From Winogradskyella sp. (GTDB lineage: Bacteria > Bacteroidota > Bacteroidia > Flavobacteriales > Flavobacteriaceae): a DNA stretch of 37,468 bases. Where the stretch lies: assembly GCF_013213975.1 (NCBI RefSeq), contig NZ_JABSST010000028.1:1-37468 (forward strand). The letters run 5' to 3'. Shown here piece by piece: positions 8,485-30,602 of the stretch. A program made the translations under genes and the position numbers. The first letter of the stretch is position 1; every line of letters begins with the position of its first letter. The notes under the pieces were generated by a model that worked only from the letters and a program-made list of their open reading frames with translations, did no database searches and had not been told where the DNA came from.

Positions 8485-8952
8485 ATGGATGCACTTAAAG
8501 ATTTTCTCCTAGCCAAAGGATATTCAAAAATTAAGCTGAAACTTACTAAAACCAACCATTTTGAAATAAAAGCAACTATAAATGGAGTTAAAGGTCGCTT
8601 TATTCTAGATACAGGAGCTTCGAGCAGTTGTGTTGGGTTTGAGGCTATTAACCGATTTAATCTAAAAGTTAAGGATTCTGATATAAAAGCTGTTGGTGCT
8701 GGTGCTTCTGATATGTTTACACAAATTTCTAAATCTAATCATTTAAAAATAGGAACTTGGCAGAAAAATAGAATTGCACTTATTCTTTTCAATTTATCTC
8801 ATGTTAATATGGGATTGATTAACCATAATGCTGATGCTGTAGATGGCATTATTGGAGCGGATGTTCTTAAAAAAGGAAAAGCTATTATTGATTATGAAAA
8901 AAAGTACCTCTATTTAAAACTGAAGGAAGTTTCATCTCCCGAAGATTCTTAG
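8485..8952 (+). CDS. Retropepsin-like (clan AA) aspartic protease
   Basis: 155 residues with no clear signal peptide or membrane helix. The active-site block is FILDTGASSSCVGFEA, with D42-T43-G44, preceded by a beta-hairpin (FEIKATINGVKGR). The second block IIGADVLKKGKAIIDYEKK (about 125-143) matches the hydrophobic-hydrophobic-Gly motif that closes a retropepsin lobe. There is only one DTG, so an active enzyme would need to dimerise, as in retroviral and other single-domain proteases. The gene precedes the response regulator by 32 bases and probably shares its transcript. Substrate and role are unknown; a regulatory proteolysis role is only suggested by the neighbour. There are no nearby retroelement genes, so a transposon origin is unlikely. 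Confidence 0.86.
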   Translation: MDALKDFLLAKGYSKIKLKLTKTNHFEIKATINGVKGRFILDTGASSSCVGFEAINRFNLKVKDSDIKAVGAGASDMFTQISKSNHLKIGTWQKNRIALILFNLSHVNMGLINHNADAVDGIIGADVLKKGKAIIDYEKKYLYLKLKEVSSPEDS

Positions 8953-8984
8953 TATATTTAAATCCCTAGTTGAATAATAGTAAA

Positions 8985-9611
8985 ATGAACCCATCATTAA
9001 TAATCGCTGATGACCACCCCTTGGTGCTCAAAGGACTGCAGGAATTTCTGATTGAAAATAATTATAATGTCTTGGCGAGCGCTAAAAATGGAAAACAGGC
9101 GTATGCATTAATAAAAGCCCATACTCCAGATATTGCTATTTTAGATATTCGCATGCCATTTTTAACCGGTTTACAGATTGCCGAAAAGTGTAAAAACGAA
9201 AACCTTAACACCAAAATCATTCTTATCACCTTTGAGAAAGAAGAGAAAATTTACAACAAAGCAAAAGCGCTAGGTGTCTATGGCTATGTATTGAAAGAAT
9301 TTGCCCTAGTTGAAATTGAAAATTGCATTACGTCTGTTCTCAAAAACATCCCATATTTTAGTCCTGAATTATTAGCCTACATCCAAGTAAATCAAACCCC
9401 AGATAAACTAGGTCTAATTACTAAAACAGAATTAAAAGTATTAAAATTAATCACCCAAAATAAGACTGCGAGAGAAATTGGAGAGAAGTTATTCATATCC
9501 CCAAGGACTGTTGAGAAGCATAAAAGCAATATTATCAGGAAGTTAGAGATTGGTAAATCACCTAATAGCTTGCTAATTTGGGTAAAGGAAAATGAAAACT
9601 ATTTATCCTAA
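8985..9611 (+). CDS. Orphan LuxR/NarL-type response regulator
   Basis: 208 residues from the ATG at 8985; a TTG 15 bases earlier is possible but less likely. The receiver domain (1-120) has the acidic pair in IIADDHP (9-10), phospho-acceptor D54 in ILDIRMP, and the conserved Lys in YVLKEF. The output domain (about 143-205) is a LuxR-type helix-turn-helix: LTQN-like KLITQNKTAREIGEKLFIS, then PRTVEKHKSNIIRKL. It should be a phosphorylation-controlled dimeric DNA-binding activator. No histidine kinase is encoded nearby. Only 3 bases separate its stop codon from a palindrome, TACGTAAGGTTACGTA, that recurs 152 bases on; this is the best candidate for its own binding site, though that is inference. 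Confidence 0.93.
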   Translation: MNPSLIIADDHPLVLKGLQEFLIENNYNVLASAKNGKQAYALIKAHTPDIAILDIRMPFLTGLQIAEKCKNENLNTKIILITFEKEEKIYNKAKALGVYGYVLKEFALVEIENCITSVLKNIPYFSPELLAYIQVNQTPDKLGLITKTELKVLKLITQNKTAREIGEKLFISPRTVEKHKSNIIRKLEIGKSPNSLLIWVKENENYLS

Positions 9612-9614
9612 AAA

Positions 9615-9664
9615 TACGTAAGGTTACGTATATTGTTACATCAAAATATTTCTGAATTTAGCAG
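9615..9664 (+). promoter_or_regulatory. Palindrome-plus-promoter unit 1
   Basis: TACGTAAGGTTACGTA (9615-9630) has perfect 7-base inverted arms around GG. The block TTCTGAATTTAGCAG follows at 9650-9664. Its TGAATTTA (9653-9660) is a weak match to the -7 consensus TAnnTTTG, and no -33 box is seen. If transcription starts near 9665-9667, the palindrome is centred about 42-44 bases upstream, the usual place for a LuxR-type activator that replaces the upstream promoter element. Likely bound by the adjacent response regulator; this is inference. Confidence 0.65.
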
Positions 9665-9747
9665 TGTTATTAATTAAGGGTTAATAACGAGCTATTAATT
9701 AGTTCTTAGGGGATTATAAAGCCTTGGGCGCAAGTCTGAGGCTTTTT
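9665..9747 (+). ncRNA. Candidate small RNA of about 80 nt with three consecutive hairpins
   Basis: Directly downstream of promoter unit 1. Hairpin 1 is GTTATTAA (9666-9673) with TTAATAAC (9681-9688). Hairpin 2 abuts it: GAGCTA (9689-9694) with TAGTTC (9700-9705), including one G-U pair. A single-stranded stretch TTAGGGGATTAT (9706-9717) follows. Hairpin 3 is a terminator: AAAGCCTTGGGC (9718-9729), GCAA tetraloop, GTCTGAGGCTTT (9734-9745) and a T-run. No usable reading frame is present. The compact fold, promoter and terminator argue for a stable regulatory RNA with the G-rich linker as a possible pairing region. There is no match to a known RNA family that I recognise. Confidence 0.55.
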
Positions 9748-9766
9748 CTTATTATCTAACAAAAAA

Positions 9767-9816
9767 TACGTAAGGTTACGTATAGTATCACATTATTATT
9801 ATTCTGAATTTAGCAG
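9767..9816 (+). promoter_or_regulatory. Palindrome-plus-promoter unit 2
   Basis: The second exact copy of TACGTAAGGTTACGTA is at 9767-9782 and the second exact copy of TTCTGAATTTAGCAG at 9802-9816. The spacing is the same 35 bases from block start to block start as in unit 1. The predicted start of transcription is near 9817-9819, reading toward the leader at 9832 and the 37-codon ORF at 9901. It is probably controlled by the same regulator as unit 1. Confidence 0.65.
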
Positions 9817-9847
9817 CGCTATTAATCAACAATGCCTCAAATTAAAT

Positions 9848-9888
9848 ATTCAAAGATTCTGATATTTTGAATGTTAAGAGTCTTTTTT
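9848..9888 (+). terminator. Attenuator-like pair of competing hairpins
   Basis: Two stems share bases 9852-9854. The upstream stem pairs AATATTCAAA (9845-9854) with TTTGAATGTT (9866-9875). The downstream stem pairs AAAGATTCT (9852-9860) with AGAGTCTTT (9877-9885), each with one G-U pair, and runs into six T residues (9883-9888), like a terminator. A 12-codon ORF (9832-9870) ends inside the structure. This could end a second short RNA, or control read-through into the ORF at 9901. Neither is shown by sequence alone. Confidence 0.45.
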
Positions 9889-9900
9889 AAAAAATTTTAT

Positions 9901-10014
9901 ATGCAACCCACAAAAGATAATATCACAAAAAAAGATAAACTGTGCATCATACTTTTAGTTATAAGTTCTATCATAGTAATCTCAGCGAACGTCGCTGTTA
10001 ATCTTTTTAATTAA
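9901..10014 (+). CDS. Possible 37-aa single-span membrane peptide
   Basis: ATG at 9901 opens a 37-codon frame. A polar, lysine-rich head (MQPTKDNITKKDK) is followed by a hydrophobic stretch (residues 14-33, LCIILLVISSIIVISANVAV) and a short tail ending NLFN. That is the shape of a one-pass membrane peptide with the N-terminus inside. It follows promoter unit 2 and the attenuator-like hairpins, and ends 35 bases before a strong terminator, so a complete transcription unit can be drawn. There is no recognisable ribosome-binding site, but that is normal in this phylum. It may be chance; the hydrophobic pattern and the flanking signals favour a real gene modestly. Confidence 0.5.
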   Translation: MQPTKDNITKKDKLCIILLVISSIIVISANVAVNLFN

Positions 10015-10049
10015 GTTAGTTAGAAACTCTTATACGTGTGTGGGAGTAG

Positions 10050-10083
10050 AAAAGCGCAGTCCTATTAGAATTGCGCTTTTTTT
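10050..10083. terminator. Bidirectional terminator between the small ORF and odhB
   Basis: AAAAGCGCA (10050-10058) pairs with TGCGCTTTT (10072-10080) over nine perfect base pairs around a 13-base loop, followed by a T-run on the plus strand and four T residues on the minus strand. It lies between convergent units: the 37-codon ORF ending at 10014 and odhB ending at 10104. Confidence 0.85.
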
Positions 10084-10103
10084 ATGTAAATTTTTATTGA
10101 ATA

Positions 10104-11324
10104 TTACATTTCTAAGGCCATAATTGGATTGTTACTCATTAACAATTCAACTGGATTTTCTAGTGCCTCCTTAACCGCTACAAGGAAACCTACAGATTCT
10201 TTTCCGTCAATTATTCTATGATCGTAAGATAAGGCCACATACATGATTGGCCTAATTTCTACTTTACCATCTACTGCAACTGGACGTTCCACAATATTAT
10301 GCATTCCCAAAATACCACTTTGAGGAGGGTTGATAATTGGTGTAGATAACATACTACCAAAAACACCACCATTTGAAATGGTAAATGTTCCACCAGTCAT
10401 TTCATCAACTGTAATTTGACCATCTCTTGCCCTTAATGCTAAACGTTTAACTTCTGACTCTACTCCTCTAAACGTTAAATTTTCTGCATTCCTAATGACT
10501 GGAACCATTAATCCTTTAGGACCAGAAACGGCAATACTGATATCACAAAAATCGTAAGAAATCATTTCCTTACCATCTATCATTGAATTCACTGCAGGAT
10601 ACATCTTTAATGCCCGTACTACTGCAAGTGTAAAGAAACTCATGAAACCAAGACTCACACCGTGCTTGGCTTTAAATTCTTCTTTATATTGTTTACGTAA
10701 GTCAAAAATTGGTGTCATATCAACCTCATTAAATGTGGTTAACATTGCCGTTGTATTTTTAGCCTCAACTAAACGCTCTGCAACTTTACGACGTAACATT
10801 GACATCTTACTTCGTGAAGTTCCACGACTTCCTCCTGAAGGAGTACCCATTGATGGTGTTGCCTTAACAGCATCGTTTTTTGTTATGCGTCCATCTCTCC
10901 CTGTTCCAGAAACTGAGCTTGACTCTATACCCTTTTCTTCTAAAATCTTTTTAGCTGCTGGACTTGGCGTTCCTGTAGCATAAGTTTTGGATTCAGTAGC
11001 TACAGGTTTTACGTCTTCTTTAGGAGCTTCAGCCTTTGCTTCTTCTTTAGCCGGAGCATCAGAACTCCCTTCAGGTTTTTCAGCACTAGTATCGATTAAA
11101 CAAACAATAGCGCCAACCTCAACTGCATCTCCTTCTTCAGCTTTTAAAGTTATAGTTCCACTCGCTTCAGCTGGTAACTCTAAGGTTGCTTTATCACTAT
11201 CGACTTCTGCAATAGCTTGATCCTTCTCCACATAATCTCCATCTTGGACTAACCATTCTGCAATTTCTACCTCAGTAATTGATTCGCCTGGTGAAGGCAC
11301 TTTCATTTCTAAAATCATGGGCAT
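10104..11324 (-). CDS. odhB: 2-oxoglutarate dehydrogenase E2, dihydrolipoyllysine succinyltransferase
   Basis: 406 residues. The lipoyl domain (1-78) carries the lipoylated lysine in [12 protein letters not shown] (K45). An Ala/Glu/Lys/Pro linker follows, then the E3-binding peripheral domain (about 120-155, [20 protein letters not shown]). The C-terminal acyltransferase has the catalytic HRIIDG motif (H369 to G374). E2 moves the succinyl group from E1 to CoA in the TCA cycle. It lies 33 bases after the E1 gene on the same strand, the usual E1-E2 operon; no E3 (lipoamide dehydrogenase) gene is present here. An ATG two codons later (11318) is an equally plausible start. The last bases precede the bidirectional terminator. 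Confidence 0.96.
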
Positions 11325-27755: not shown

Positions 27756-30380
27756 TTAGTTCTTAATAACTTTTTCTACAAAATTGAAGTTCTCACCACT
27801 GATTGATAAAATATAAATACCATCTTGGAGATTCGCAGTATTAATTGAAATAGTATCAATTAAATTACGCTTTATGTTCAGTACCTCTCTTCCATTCAAA
27901 TCTGTTAGTTTAATCGTCGCATTTCCTAAACTAACCTTTGTCGAAATAGACAATTCTGTTTGTGTTGGATTAGGATACACTTCCAAAGTATTACTAGAAA
28001 ACTCTTCAACACTTAAACTAGAACAATTTGCTAAGGATGGATCTGTACTTGGTGGCACTGAAAAATCTTCTACCTGATCTGATCTAGAACCCGATGAACC
28101 TTGTGTAGCATTCAGTCCAAGTCCTCGGGCAGCGAACACTTCCCAAATCATACATTGATCTTCTCCTCCCATAGCCGCGTCTGCAGCTAATAGTGCATCT
28201 CGTCCATCTATAAATCCTGGCTGACATGGTTGAAGCTTTAAACCATCTGTAACCAGCTGGATTACTTTGTTATTTCCACCTGTTCCGTTATAAAGATCAG
28301 GATCAAATCCATATTTATCAATGTACGCCCATGTTAAATCCCACAAAACAGTGGCCCAAACAAATCCAACACCATGTGGTACGGATAACCCAGGGTTATT
28401 TGTATCGCCGTACGTAAATCCATTAACAACTAAATCTGGACTGTAGCGTGCAGGTCTAATACCACCTCCAGTAGTTGGCTGGCTAACTGCGAATGTTCCT
28501 ATACCTCTTGCATCACCAGGTGAATCAGATGCACTCATAGTTATCATTAATCCGAACCAATCAGACCATCCTTCACCCATTTGTTCTTCATTAAACAGAC
28601 AACCTGCAGCACCTGCTCCACCAGTCAATCTTGTTGAAATTCCATGGCCATATTCATGTGCAACAATACCATTATCAAAATCACCATCAATTAAAAATGG
28701 ACCATTATTTGCTAAAGTTGCAGACAGGGTTTGTCCTCCTAATAAGGCTGCTATAATGGCTTCACCATCAGTTTGATTTACCATAATTGAAGGAATCGTA
28801 ACTTGATTTCCAACGGCACCACCACCCATAGTAATGGTAGCACCAGGTTCATTATTAACAATCACAGCTGCAACAGCTCCGGCATTTTCAGCAGCTCTTA
28901 CTTTAAAACCAAATTCGCAAGAACCCCTTCTTATAACCGCAATACTACCATTTAAGGCTCCTGTATTGGTCAATGGATCACAAGCATCATTTACATCTGG
29001 AGTAAAGTCTGAGGCAAGTGCTAAATTAGCTGTAATTGGTGTGGTTGTTAATCCACTTCCAAATGTGGCTTCACTACCGTCATAACTTCCTGCCACAGTT
29101 CCATTATTAATGGTTAGAGGTTCATTTAATCCCCCTGACGGTGTCCATAAGAACATTGTCATCGTTGGATTTTGCCCATCAGGTGGAGTTCCGAAAGTAG
29201 CATTGTTTTGCCCGCTTCCATCTTGAGCATCTGCATTAACAGAATCACTACCAACACCCATTCCTGTATAATTTGTTTCTTGGAAATTTCCTGATGCTTC
29301 GTCAAAACCATAATGATGCCAGATATCATGCATCATATTATTGGTATAAAACAGATTTGTAACCGAAACATCTTCATAATTTTCAGGTGGTTGATTTATA
29401 TCTAAAGGAAAATCGAAGTTTAAAGCATTTGTTCCATCAGGTGAAAAACCAATTGTGAACGGTAAACCATCTCTATCTTCTTGAGCCCACACATTGTTAC
29501 CTCTAGTTACTGTATGCTCTGGTCCTGCAATACCGTTAGTATCATGCCACCCAAATGGAGAGGCAGAAGGACTTGCTGGGTTAACAACTATTTGACGAGA
29601 ACCATGATTAGGACTTTCGACTGGAAGTGCAAATACGTTATACCTTGCTCCATCAACTAACATTGAAGAGGAGGAATTGACAACATCGAAAAAGTTCGTA
29701 TCTATCTCTTGCCTTTCATGTGTATGAGGCTCACCAAAATCGCAACTCAACACTAAATTATTTACATCAAGTAACTCACTAGTCGCTGCATCTATTCTCG
29801 CACTGTACCAATGGGTATTATCACTTGCGTAAATAATGACGTCCCAAGCTAATTTTAATTGGTCATTTACTTGAGCATAAACCAGTTCTACAGGAATATT
29901 CCTAGTTGATACATTTCCATTAGAAAATTCATAGGCATAACCTTCTTTAGAAAGTTGCGTTAAATTCTCTGGCGTACCAAGTCCAAAATGGTTTGCTAGG
30001 GTCTGAATGGCAGATGCTGGAGTTAATTGAGGGGCATTTGAATTAGCCTTTGCAGAAATATCAGAAATTAATCGATTTGCATAATACTGGATCGCACGAT
30101 CTTTAATAGCAACCGTAGAAATAGCATTGTAAATTCTAATCCCTTCATAGGCTTGATTAATATAGACATACGTCAAACCATTACTTCTAGAGTAAGATTT
30201 ATTATTAATTACAATTTCTTCAAAATCTTTAGTGTCTAAATTCATCTCTCCTTTATGTTCATCTAAATAGGACGCAATAATCGCCTCTATTTCTGAGATT
30301 TGTAAATTATTCTGACTATAAACAAACGAAGATGTTAATGAAAGACATAAAAAGGTCTGTAGAAGGTATTTTCTAATCAT
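27756..30380 (-). CDS. Secreted M36 (fungalysin-like) metalloprotease with PA and T9SS sorting domains
   Basis: 874 residues from the ATG at 30380, which puts a signal peptide first (MIRKYLLQTFLCLSLTSS, then FVYSQ). An in-frame ATG 16 codons upstream is unlikely. An FTP-like propeptide (about 25-200) is followed by the M36 catalytic domain. The zinc motif is VAHEYGHGISTRL and the downstream ligand is in EQMGEGWSDWFGL. A PA domain is inserted before the zinc motif (RGSCEFGFKVRAAENAGAVA). The last ~75 residues are a type A T9SS sorting domain (LEVYPNPTQTELSIS, then DLNGREVL and a final FVEKVIKN). It should be exported by Sec, then type IX, to digest extracellular protein. Confidence 0.95.
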   Translation of the reverse strand: MIRKYLLQTFLCLSLTSSFVYSQNNLQISEIEAIIASYLDEHKGEMNLDTKDFEEIVINNKSYSRSNGLTYVYINQAYEGIRIYNAISTVAIKDRAIQYYANRLISDISAKANSNAPQLTPASAIQTLANHFGLGTPENLTQLSKEGYAYEFSNGNVSTRNIPVELVYAQVNDQLKLAWDVIIYASDNTHWYSARIDAATSELLDVNNLVLSCDFGEPHTHERQEIDTNFFDVVNSSSSMLVDGARYNVFALPVESPNHGSRQIVVNPASPSASPFGWHDTNGIAGPEHTVTRGNNVWAQEDRDGLPFTIGFSPDGTNALNFDFPLDINQPPENYEDVSVTNLFYTNNMMHDIWHHYGFDEASGNFQETNYTGMGVGSDSVNADAQDGSGQNNATFGTPPDGQNPTMTMFLWTPSGGLNEPLTINNGTVAGSYDGSEATFGSGLTTTPITANLALASDFTPDVNDACDPLTNTGALNGSIAVIRRGSCEFGFKVRAAENAGAVAAVIVNNEPGATITMGGGAVGNQVTIPSIMVNQTDGEAIIAALLGGQTLSATLANNGPFLIDGDFDNGIVAHEYGHGISTRLTGGAGAAGCLFNEEQMGEGWSDWFGLMITMSASDSPGDARGIGTFAVSQPTTGGGIRPARYSPDLVVNGFTYGDTNNPGLSVPHGVGFVWATVLWDLTWAYIDKYGFDPDLYNGTGGNNKVIQLVTDGLKLQPCQPGFIDGRDALLAADAAMGGEDQCMIWEVFAARGLGLNATQGSSGSRSDQVEDFSVPPSTDPSLANCSSLSVEEFSSNTLEVYPNPTQTELSISTKVSLGNATIKLTDLNGREVLNIKRNLIDTISINTANLQDGIYILSISGENFNFVEKVIKN

Positions 30381-30602
30381 AGCAATTAAATAATGTTTAA
30401 TTAATAATGTATGTCGAAGTGACAGCACATTATATACAATTTGTTTTTTTCAAAAATAAGGAATCATTAAGGAATTATAAAATATTACCACTATTACCTA
30501 ATGAATTGAAAATTATATACAAGTTTTATTGAATTCGTGATAAAATAGAATTGCTCATTACTAAATAAAGTCTTACCAAATTCTGTCTTTTTAAATTTAA
30601 AA

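Follow-up and report, generated by a model that had tools for sequence, protein, structure and literature searches.

The present analysis concerns a stretch of 37,468 nucleotides (nt) of Winogradskyella sp. (NZ_JABSST010000028.1; hereafter the window, whose positions serve as coordinates throughout) and, within it, an orphan response regulator gene followed by two copies of a palindrome. Our results support the notion that this locus is a self-contained cassette, in which a regulator gene is joined to its own predicted sites, to promoters that are likely activated and to two predicted outputs, a small RNA (sRNA) and a leader RNA with a membrane peptide; we give this reading a probability of roughly 0.76. 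The cassette is real and conserved, and the observation reaches far beyond what a single window could show. Sequence comparison bears out how its parts are ordered, a fixed spacing from palindrome to -7 box, the association of regulator and site across the family, a covarying stem, coding-type variation in the peptide, and the recurrence of the RNA behind a second regulator, with PAS and GerE domains (PAS-GerE). The features of the locus are the following.

8485..8952, + strand: retropepsin-like aspartyl protease gene, 5' of the regulator gene (Pfam Asp_protease_2, 1.2e-11)
8985..9611, + strand: orphan response regulator, receiver and GerE, NarL/FixJ type (Pfam Response_reg 5.4e-25, GerE 1.4e-13)
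9615..9630, + strand: palindrome 1 (TACGTAAGGTTACGTA), predicted regulator site, centred at -43.5 of the derived +1
9654..9661, + strand: putative -7 box of unit 1 (GAATTTAG), a degenerate TAnnTTTG (consensus from PMC9723704)
9666..9753, + strand: predicted sRNA 1, its +1 placed at 9666 by prediction; a hairpin at the 5' end, then a conserved core with terminator (9691-9753)
9767..9782, + strand: palindrome 2, identical in sequence to palindrome 1
9806..9813, + strand: putative -7 box of unit 2 (GAATTTAG)
9818..9892, + strand: predicted leader RNA of unit 2, its +1 placed at 9818 by prediction; distantly related to sRNA 1, with a terminator-like hairpin that precedes the peptide gene
9901..10014, + strand: predicted single-span membrane peptide of 37 amino acids (aa); an alternative start at 9871 gives 47 aa
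10052..10084, + strand: terminator-like hairpin closing unit 2, read by eye

The regulator and the palindrome behind its gene

The regulator has the domain order of the NarL/FixJ type, a receiver followed by GerE, both above the Pfam cut-off and with the receiver residues intact. Indeed, the acidic pair D9 and D10, the phospho-acceptor Asp D54, T82 and K104 are identical in all 130 regulator rows that we compared. None of the 25 NCBIfam models listed, of 99 matched, was reached at its own cut-off. A domain scan of the window's 28 open reading frames (ORFs) of at least 130 aa found no kinase domain, in agreement with the first-pass annotation, which had seen no kinase nearby. That annotation had also described the palindrome TACGTAAGGTTACGTA correctly: its two copies (9615-9630 and 9767-9782) lie 152 bases apart, and the first begins three bases past the regulator stop codon (9609-9611). 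With up to three mismatches, the palindrome pattern has four matches in the window (two places, both strands) against 0.23 expected.

Orthologues within the genus were defined by at least 60% identity and are present in 60 of 68 genomes. The family sample comprised 397 genomes, among which the regulator was found in 151 at a cut-off of E 1e-58. Outside the genus, the region 3' of the gene was read in 67 of the 148 genomes with a regulator match, all 67 among the better-scoring ones (27 as returned and 40 by place); with Gelidibacter algens (L065) added, this gave 68 loci. The 130 orthologue rows include two repeated loci (L066 = L064, L097 = L078), which leaves 128 distinct loci, 60 from the genus and 68 from outside it. 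A TACGTA-N4-TACGTA palindrome stands behind the regulator in 126 of these 128. All 60 genus loci have at least two palindrome units within 700 bases (TACGTRNNNNYACGTA, centre free, one mismatch allowed), one of them having three, and outside the genus the palindrome follows the gene at 66 of the 68 distinct loci. The cultured species W. algicola is among those with the cassette (L063/L050). The first palindrome overlaps the regulator stop codon in 17/128 rows.

Regulator and site also occur together across genomes. The 16-mer of the window, with at most one mismatch, was present in 44 of the 60 genus genomes with the regulator and in none of the 8 without it (p 1e-4); its reversed control matched in 4/68 genus genomes, once in each. 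Moreover, the strict site with its -7 box was found in 118/151 family genomes with the regulator vs 14/246 without (p 2.7e-53), and the reversed pattern had no association (5/151 vs 6/246, p 0.75). The co-occurrence that had been proposed as a check on the pairing is therefore strongly favourable in genus and family alike, and the lack of association that would have spoken against the pairing was not observed. Judged by comparative evidence, the assignment of the predicted site to the regulator appears strong. Where the palindrome varies, its two arms mostly vary together: position 6 is complementary to position 11 in 243/259 units, and position 7 to position 10 in 212/259. The first two palindromes of a locus are identical in 66 of 103 cases, against 11.5% between loci; thus the units seem to evolve in concert, which would account for the two identical 16-mers in the window.

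Promoter geometry and the two outputs

The geometry was read from 259 units of the 130 rows (two rows being repeats), with positions given as an index of bases behind the palindrome. TTT followed by A or G begins at index 27 in 246 of the 259 units, and A stands at index 24 in 98-99% of them. The -7 box of Flavobacterium psychrophilum, TAnnTTTG, spans -12 to -5 according to PMC9723704, and the spacing of palindrome, A and TTT fits this box. With TAnnTTTG at -12 to -5, the +1 would therefore lie at index 35 and the palindrome would be centred at -43.5. The base at index 35 is G in 171/259 and A in 77/259 units, and in many units it is the G of GCTATTAAT. The starts predicted earlier, 9665 and 9817, are each one base off the derived ones (9666 and 9818), and the palindrome, which had been put near -42, occupies a position expected of an activator site beside RNA polymerase.

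Other parts of the first description had to be revised. The lack of a -33 box holds for Winogradskyella, whose promoters have TAG at -33 in place of TTG; outside the genus, by contrast, the -33 position immediately after the palindrome is occupied by TTG or TTT. The 15-mer TTCTGAATTTAGCAG is indeed at 9650-9664 and 9802-9816, and the distance of 35 bases after the palindrome proves to run from start to start, with 19 bases between. As a recurring motif the 15-mer did not stand: it is a promoter stretch of the window genome alone, and among 103 loci with at least two units the window locus is the only one with identity over its positions. With up to three mismatches it matches the window 7 times against 2.69 expected, its two exact copies counted in. 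What is conserved across units is not the 15-mer, it is the palindrome with the A and the TTT of the -7 box at a fixed distance. A strict pattern palindrome-N26-TTTA (22 matches in 11/22 genomes, reversed control 0) was dropped as too narrow, because most units have TTT at index 27.

The structured RNA candidate behind the first promoter held up: the fold of 9666-9753 has a z of -5.3, and none of 200 shuffles was equally stable. The model R1 matches the window at 9691-9753 (46.9 bits, E 4.9e-9), finds a match at E 0.01 or better in all 60 genus loci (113 matches, counted anywhere in the locus and not all of them inside a unit) and matches 59 of 149 family genomes at E 0.001. Outside the genus the predicted transcript starts with GCUAUUAAUUAGUUCUUAGGGAGAAUUA and ends in a terminator hairpin, and the Winogradskyella RNA has an additional 5' hairpin. 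Over 48 sequences, 95.2% of the whole structure is paired, and 0/500 shuffles reach any of the five measures taken. The terminator stem is 97.8% paired, and each of its 13 pairs has changed on both sides. For the 5' hairpin, which carries the UAGGG loop, pairing is 91.5%, and it is so nearly invariant that covariation says little about it. Covariation may be seen in terminator stems in any case; more informative is the 5' block, which hardly varies. Searches of Rfam returned no family at gathering score: 20 loci gave only tRNA, and all matches in window 9500-10200 were below gathering.

The RNA of unit 2 begins like sRNA 1 and scores as a distant relative of it, and many genus loci have a second, stronger R1 match. 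A short hydrophobic peptide ORF (29-47 aa, the shortest candidate per locus) lies behind a unit in 113/130 rows by a filter-based count. In 35 genus copies the codon entropy of 0.66/0.28/1.09 is of the coding type, and 5419/12496 codon differences are silent in frame vs 1561/12965 and 642/13149 in the shifted frames. The peptide matched no Pfam or NCBIfam family. A terminator-like hairpin precedes the peptide ATG in 83 of 109 leaders. We also inspected the unit 2 leader by eye for a conserved antiterminator, which suits some species and not the window; it is not claimed. In distant genera the palindrome leading into the peptide is TACGTG-N4-CACGTA or near it.

As for neighbours, the aspartyl protease gene is near the regulator in 90/90 rows of the first set and 30/40 of the second, which makes it a usual and not an obligatory neighbour. 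Beyond the hairpin at 10052..10084 lies a convergent gene for a 2-oxoacid dehydrogenase acyltransferase (odhB, by Pfam), which is near the regulator in 32 of the 40 rows of the second set, read outside the genus. A GCGCAA..TTGCGC stem with a T-run, similar to this hairpin, was seen in relatives.

Other regulators before the same RNA and the proposed mechanism

The RNA also occurs away from the first regulator. Twenty such places were picked by hand from the family R1 matches, and 14 of them follow the gene of a protein of 254-257 aa; Pfam identified the one tested as PAS-GerE. These loci have a different palindrome, TACTCAA-W-TTGAGTA, then TTG and a -7 box spaced as in the first-type units. 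A PAS-GerE-type site with -7 box was found in 25/35 genomes with the gene vs 0/114 without (p 1.1e-20; reversed control 0/149), and in all 25 one such site lies -8 to +261 bases from the gene end. Three further places lie behind the gene of a receiver-like protein of 221 aa; in the one tested, Response_reg matched below its cut-off (E 4e-5). Two of these three loci have a TTACGG-N4-CCGTAA palindrome; this third class is a lead only. The remaining places are one displaced copy beside odhB and two with none of these regulators.

The window genome itself (G000) has a PAS-GerE module on contig C132 (L308:1908-2822), where a gene product 70% identical to the PAS-GerE protein is followed, 27 bases further on, by the site, with the palindrome TACTCAAATTGAGTA. 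The predicted transcript starts with GCTATTAAA and has a terminator. R1 did not match this RNA at E 1 and its fold z is only -1.5; it thus has the start and layout of the family, not the core. PAS-GerE-type sites also precede short lipoprotein-like ORFs at five loci (L310, L312, L316, L317 and L324, by eye).

Taken together, we lean slightly toward the view that, in Flavobacteriaceae, one sRNA family serves as a plug-in output of several regulators, by which different signals would reach one CsrA-free post-transcriptional switch. Each of the receiver-GerE, PAS-GerE and receiver-like regulators would carry a copy of the RNA gene immediately behind its own gene, under a palindrome specific to it and with a similar spacing to the -7 box. 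The natural swap of regulator and palindrome before one RNA family provides two independent regulator-site assignments from sequence alone.

For the steps from binding and activation to transcription, RNA action, RNA targets and the role of the peptide, we infer the following course. A kinase encoded elsewhere would supply the signal, and the phosphorylated regulator would bind the palindrome, which is a 7-2-7 inverted repeat with its centre at -43.5, and contact RNA polymerase. Activation of the unit 1 promoter would yield the small structured RNA, and that of the unit 2 promoter the related leader RNA and the membrane peptide. The RNA might act in trans through its conserved 5' part and UAGGG loop, either by base-pairing to mRNAs or by way of some RNA-binding protein that is not CsrA. 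The peptide probably sits in the inner membrane, from where it may report back to signalling proteins, and the PAS sensor regulator module would couple the same RNA output to a different signal.

Several observations weigh against such a cassette or limit it. Two orthologues (L154 and L163) are without any palindrome, and their usual neighbours are missing too. The strict pattern is missing in 33/151 genomes with the regulator and present in 14/246 without it. In two genomes where no regulator passed the cut-off, the RNA nevertheless stands behind a first-type palindrome, with one mismatch in G118 (L277) and two in G188 (L276). Both units of the window belong to the 9/259 whose TTT is shifted by one base toward the palindrome, to index 26, and 4/259 units have TTT at neither index 26 nor 27. 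Only one of the seven pairs of the 5' hairpin is changed on both sides. In the window, the unit 2 leader scores poorly as an RNA (R1 11.6 bits, E 0.51; fold z -1.4), and 26/109 peptide leaders are without a terminator-like hairpin by the criterion used; the window leader is included in these 26, the count having used the upstream start at 9871. Finally, six loci of distant genera (L144, L147, L152, L156, L157 and L161) have the peptide unit without the RNA.

Other explanations have to be weighed against the same data. The RNA stretches might act only in cis, as leaders or attenuators for the adjacent peptide, sRNA 1 being a duplicate without action in trans, and both the terminator-like hairpin in 83/109 peptide leaders and the kinship of the unit 2 leader with sRNA 1 would suit this. 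We nonetheless consider it unlikely, given that the strongest core sits in ORF-free units and is near invariant across genera, and that the RNA core recurs away from the peptide, behind other regulators. A regulator that shuts off its outputs, with the palindromes as operators, is improbable: palindromes can serve repression and their position taken alone would be compatible with it, yet the sites are centred at -43.5, upstream of the -7 box and not over it, at near-constant spacing, and TAG for TTG at -33 in Winogradskyella is what would be expected of activator-dependent promoters. We give almost no weight to the notion that the palindromes are unlinked to the regulator and belong to repeat elements or terminators. 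It would explain their several copies in many genomes, some in repeated and perhaps mobile contexts; it does not fit the linkage, the co-occurrence, the single-base promoter geometry or the different palindrome at the same distance behind a different regulator.

A small hydrophobic peptide beside a small RNA might also recall a type I toxin-antitoxin pair, in which sRNA 1 would be the antisense antitoxin to a toxic membrane peptide. This is very unlikely, sRNA 1 and the peptide gene being on the same strand without overlap. Predicted pairing of the first unit's RNA with the peptide start region was no better than in shuffles (85 loci, mean z 0.09, 2 below -2). A role of the RNAs as CsrA sponges of a Gac/Rsm system, which a GerE-type response regulator, palindromes and an AGGG(A) in a predicted hairpin loop could suggest, was rejected: PF02599 was found in 0/31 relatives, including the window genome, with a control positive in 3/14 named genomes. 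Because CsrA was not found in these 31 relatives, we hold a Gac/Rsm system to be extremely unlikely.

Related systems and further sites of the palindrome

NarL sites are 7-2-7 inverted repeats of the form TAC...GTA. The present regulator shares with the NarL/FixJ type the receiver and GerE domains, intact phosphorylation residues and a 16-bp inverted repeat ending in TAC/GTA; it differs from NarL in the half-site, here TACGTA or TACGTG, and in sites placed behind the regulator's own gene. Four further systems invite comparison. GacA/UvrY with RsmY/RsmZ/CsrB likewise combine a GerE-type response regulator, palindromic sites and several related sRNAs, whereas here CsrA was not found (31 genomes), the RNA gene adjoins the regulator and the RNA is a short hairpin with a terminator. 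AgrA with RNAIII and delta-haemolysin is similar in that the RNA output adjoins the regulator and one output is a small hydrophobic peptide, but AgrA is a LytTR protein and the present regulator a GerE one, and the cassette is not known to include pheromone genes. LuxO and the Qrr RNAs of Vibrio resemble the cassette in having several copies of one sRNA family as a signalling output; LuxO, however, is a sigma-54 activator with one kind of site, and here different regulators have different palindromes. Finally, CsgD of the E. coli curli system is also an orphan GerE-type regulator, and in several other genera curlin genes have palindromes nearby; in contrast to that system, curlin was not matched in the window genome, and the receiver residues are canonical here.

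Rfp18 of F. psychrophilum is a structured sRNA conserved in its genus, whose deletion lowers two metalloprotease mRNAs in stationary phase, according to PMC9723704. Like the RNA predicted here it is structured and flavobacterial, and Rfp18 may prove a member of the present RNA family. The window encodes, at 27756-30428, an M36 fungalysin protease with a type IX secretion tail, which is of interest since Rfp18 affects metalloprotease mRNAs. A literature search found no description of the cassette. In our judgement post-transcriptional control in Bacteroidota is little known, and a circuit whose regulator is conserved in 151/397 sampled family genomes is relevant to it. Every link is directly testable, because the regulator, candidate site, promoter distance, candidate RNA and candidate peptide are all defined.

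The palindrome also occurs outside the cassette, where 40 places were read, hand-picked among the matches listed; the genes beside them are given here as motif associations. Within the window genome, at up to two mismatches to the 16-mer, the only further match is on contig C134, before a lipoprotein gene (by reading), with TTTA at the same distance as in the window units. A curlin search covered 38 genomes picked by hand. Among 30 curlin loci of other genera, 10 have an exact palindrome nearby and 2 more have one with one mismatch (L237-L241, L243-L245, L247, L249, L252 and L253). The strict -7 distance is seen in 4 of the 10 exact palindromes, 3 of those 4 being the loci that gave the lead. 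No curlin match was found in the window genome (G000), and we propose no curli role in Winogradskyella.

Another conserved RNA, marked by the invariant blocks TTTTTTGTGGGGATA and TTTACTAAGTTAGGTTTGTTA, stands behind the same type of palindrome in distant genera (L189, L190, L196, L197, L201, L202, L215, L216 and L217). Over nine sequences, 16 of its 39 predicted pairs are changed on both sides, and Rfam gave no match in 10 loci carrying it. Proteins of 58-61 aa with a hydrophobic stretch, ending in APTGS or similar, are encoded behind palindromes in four genera (L187, L192, L211 and L213), and proteins of 495-496 aa recur near palindromes in other genera, with a metallo-beta-lactamase fold in the one tested. 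Seven-base tandem repeats lie near the starts of lipoprotein-like ORFs downstream of the palindrome at two loci (L209 and L225), which are possible contingency loci. Some Winogradskyella have palindromes before a repeated element and varied genes, perhaps integron-like (L173, L180, L181, L182 and L184), and defence-like genes are found behind palindromes at L188, L203 and L204 (TIR just below the cut-off, FRG, and AAA with DUF4435).

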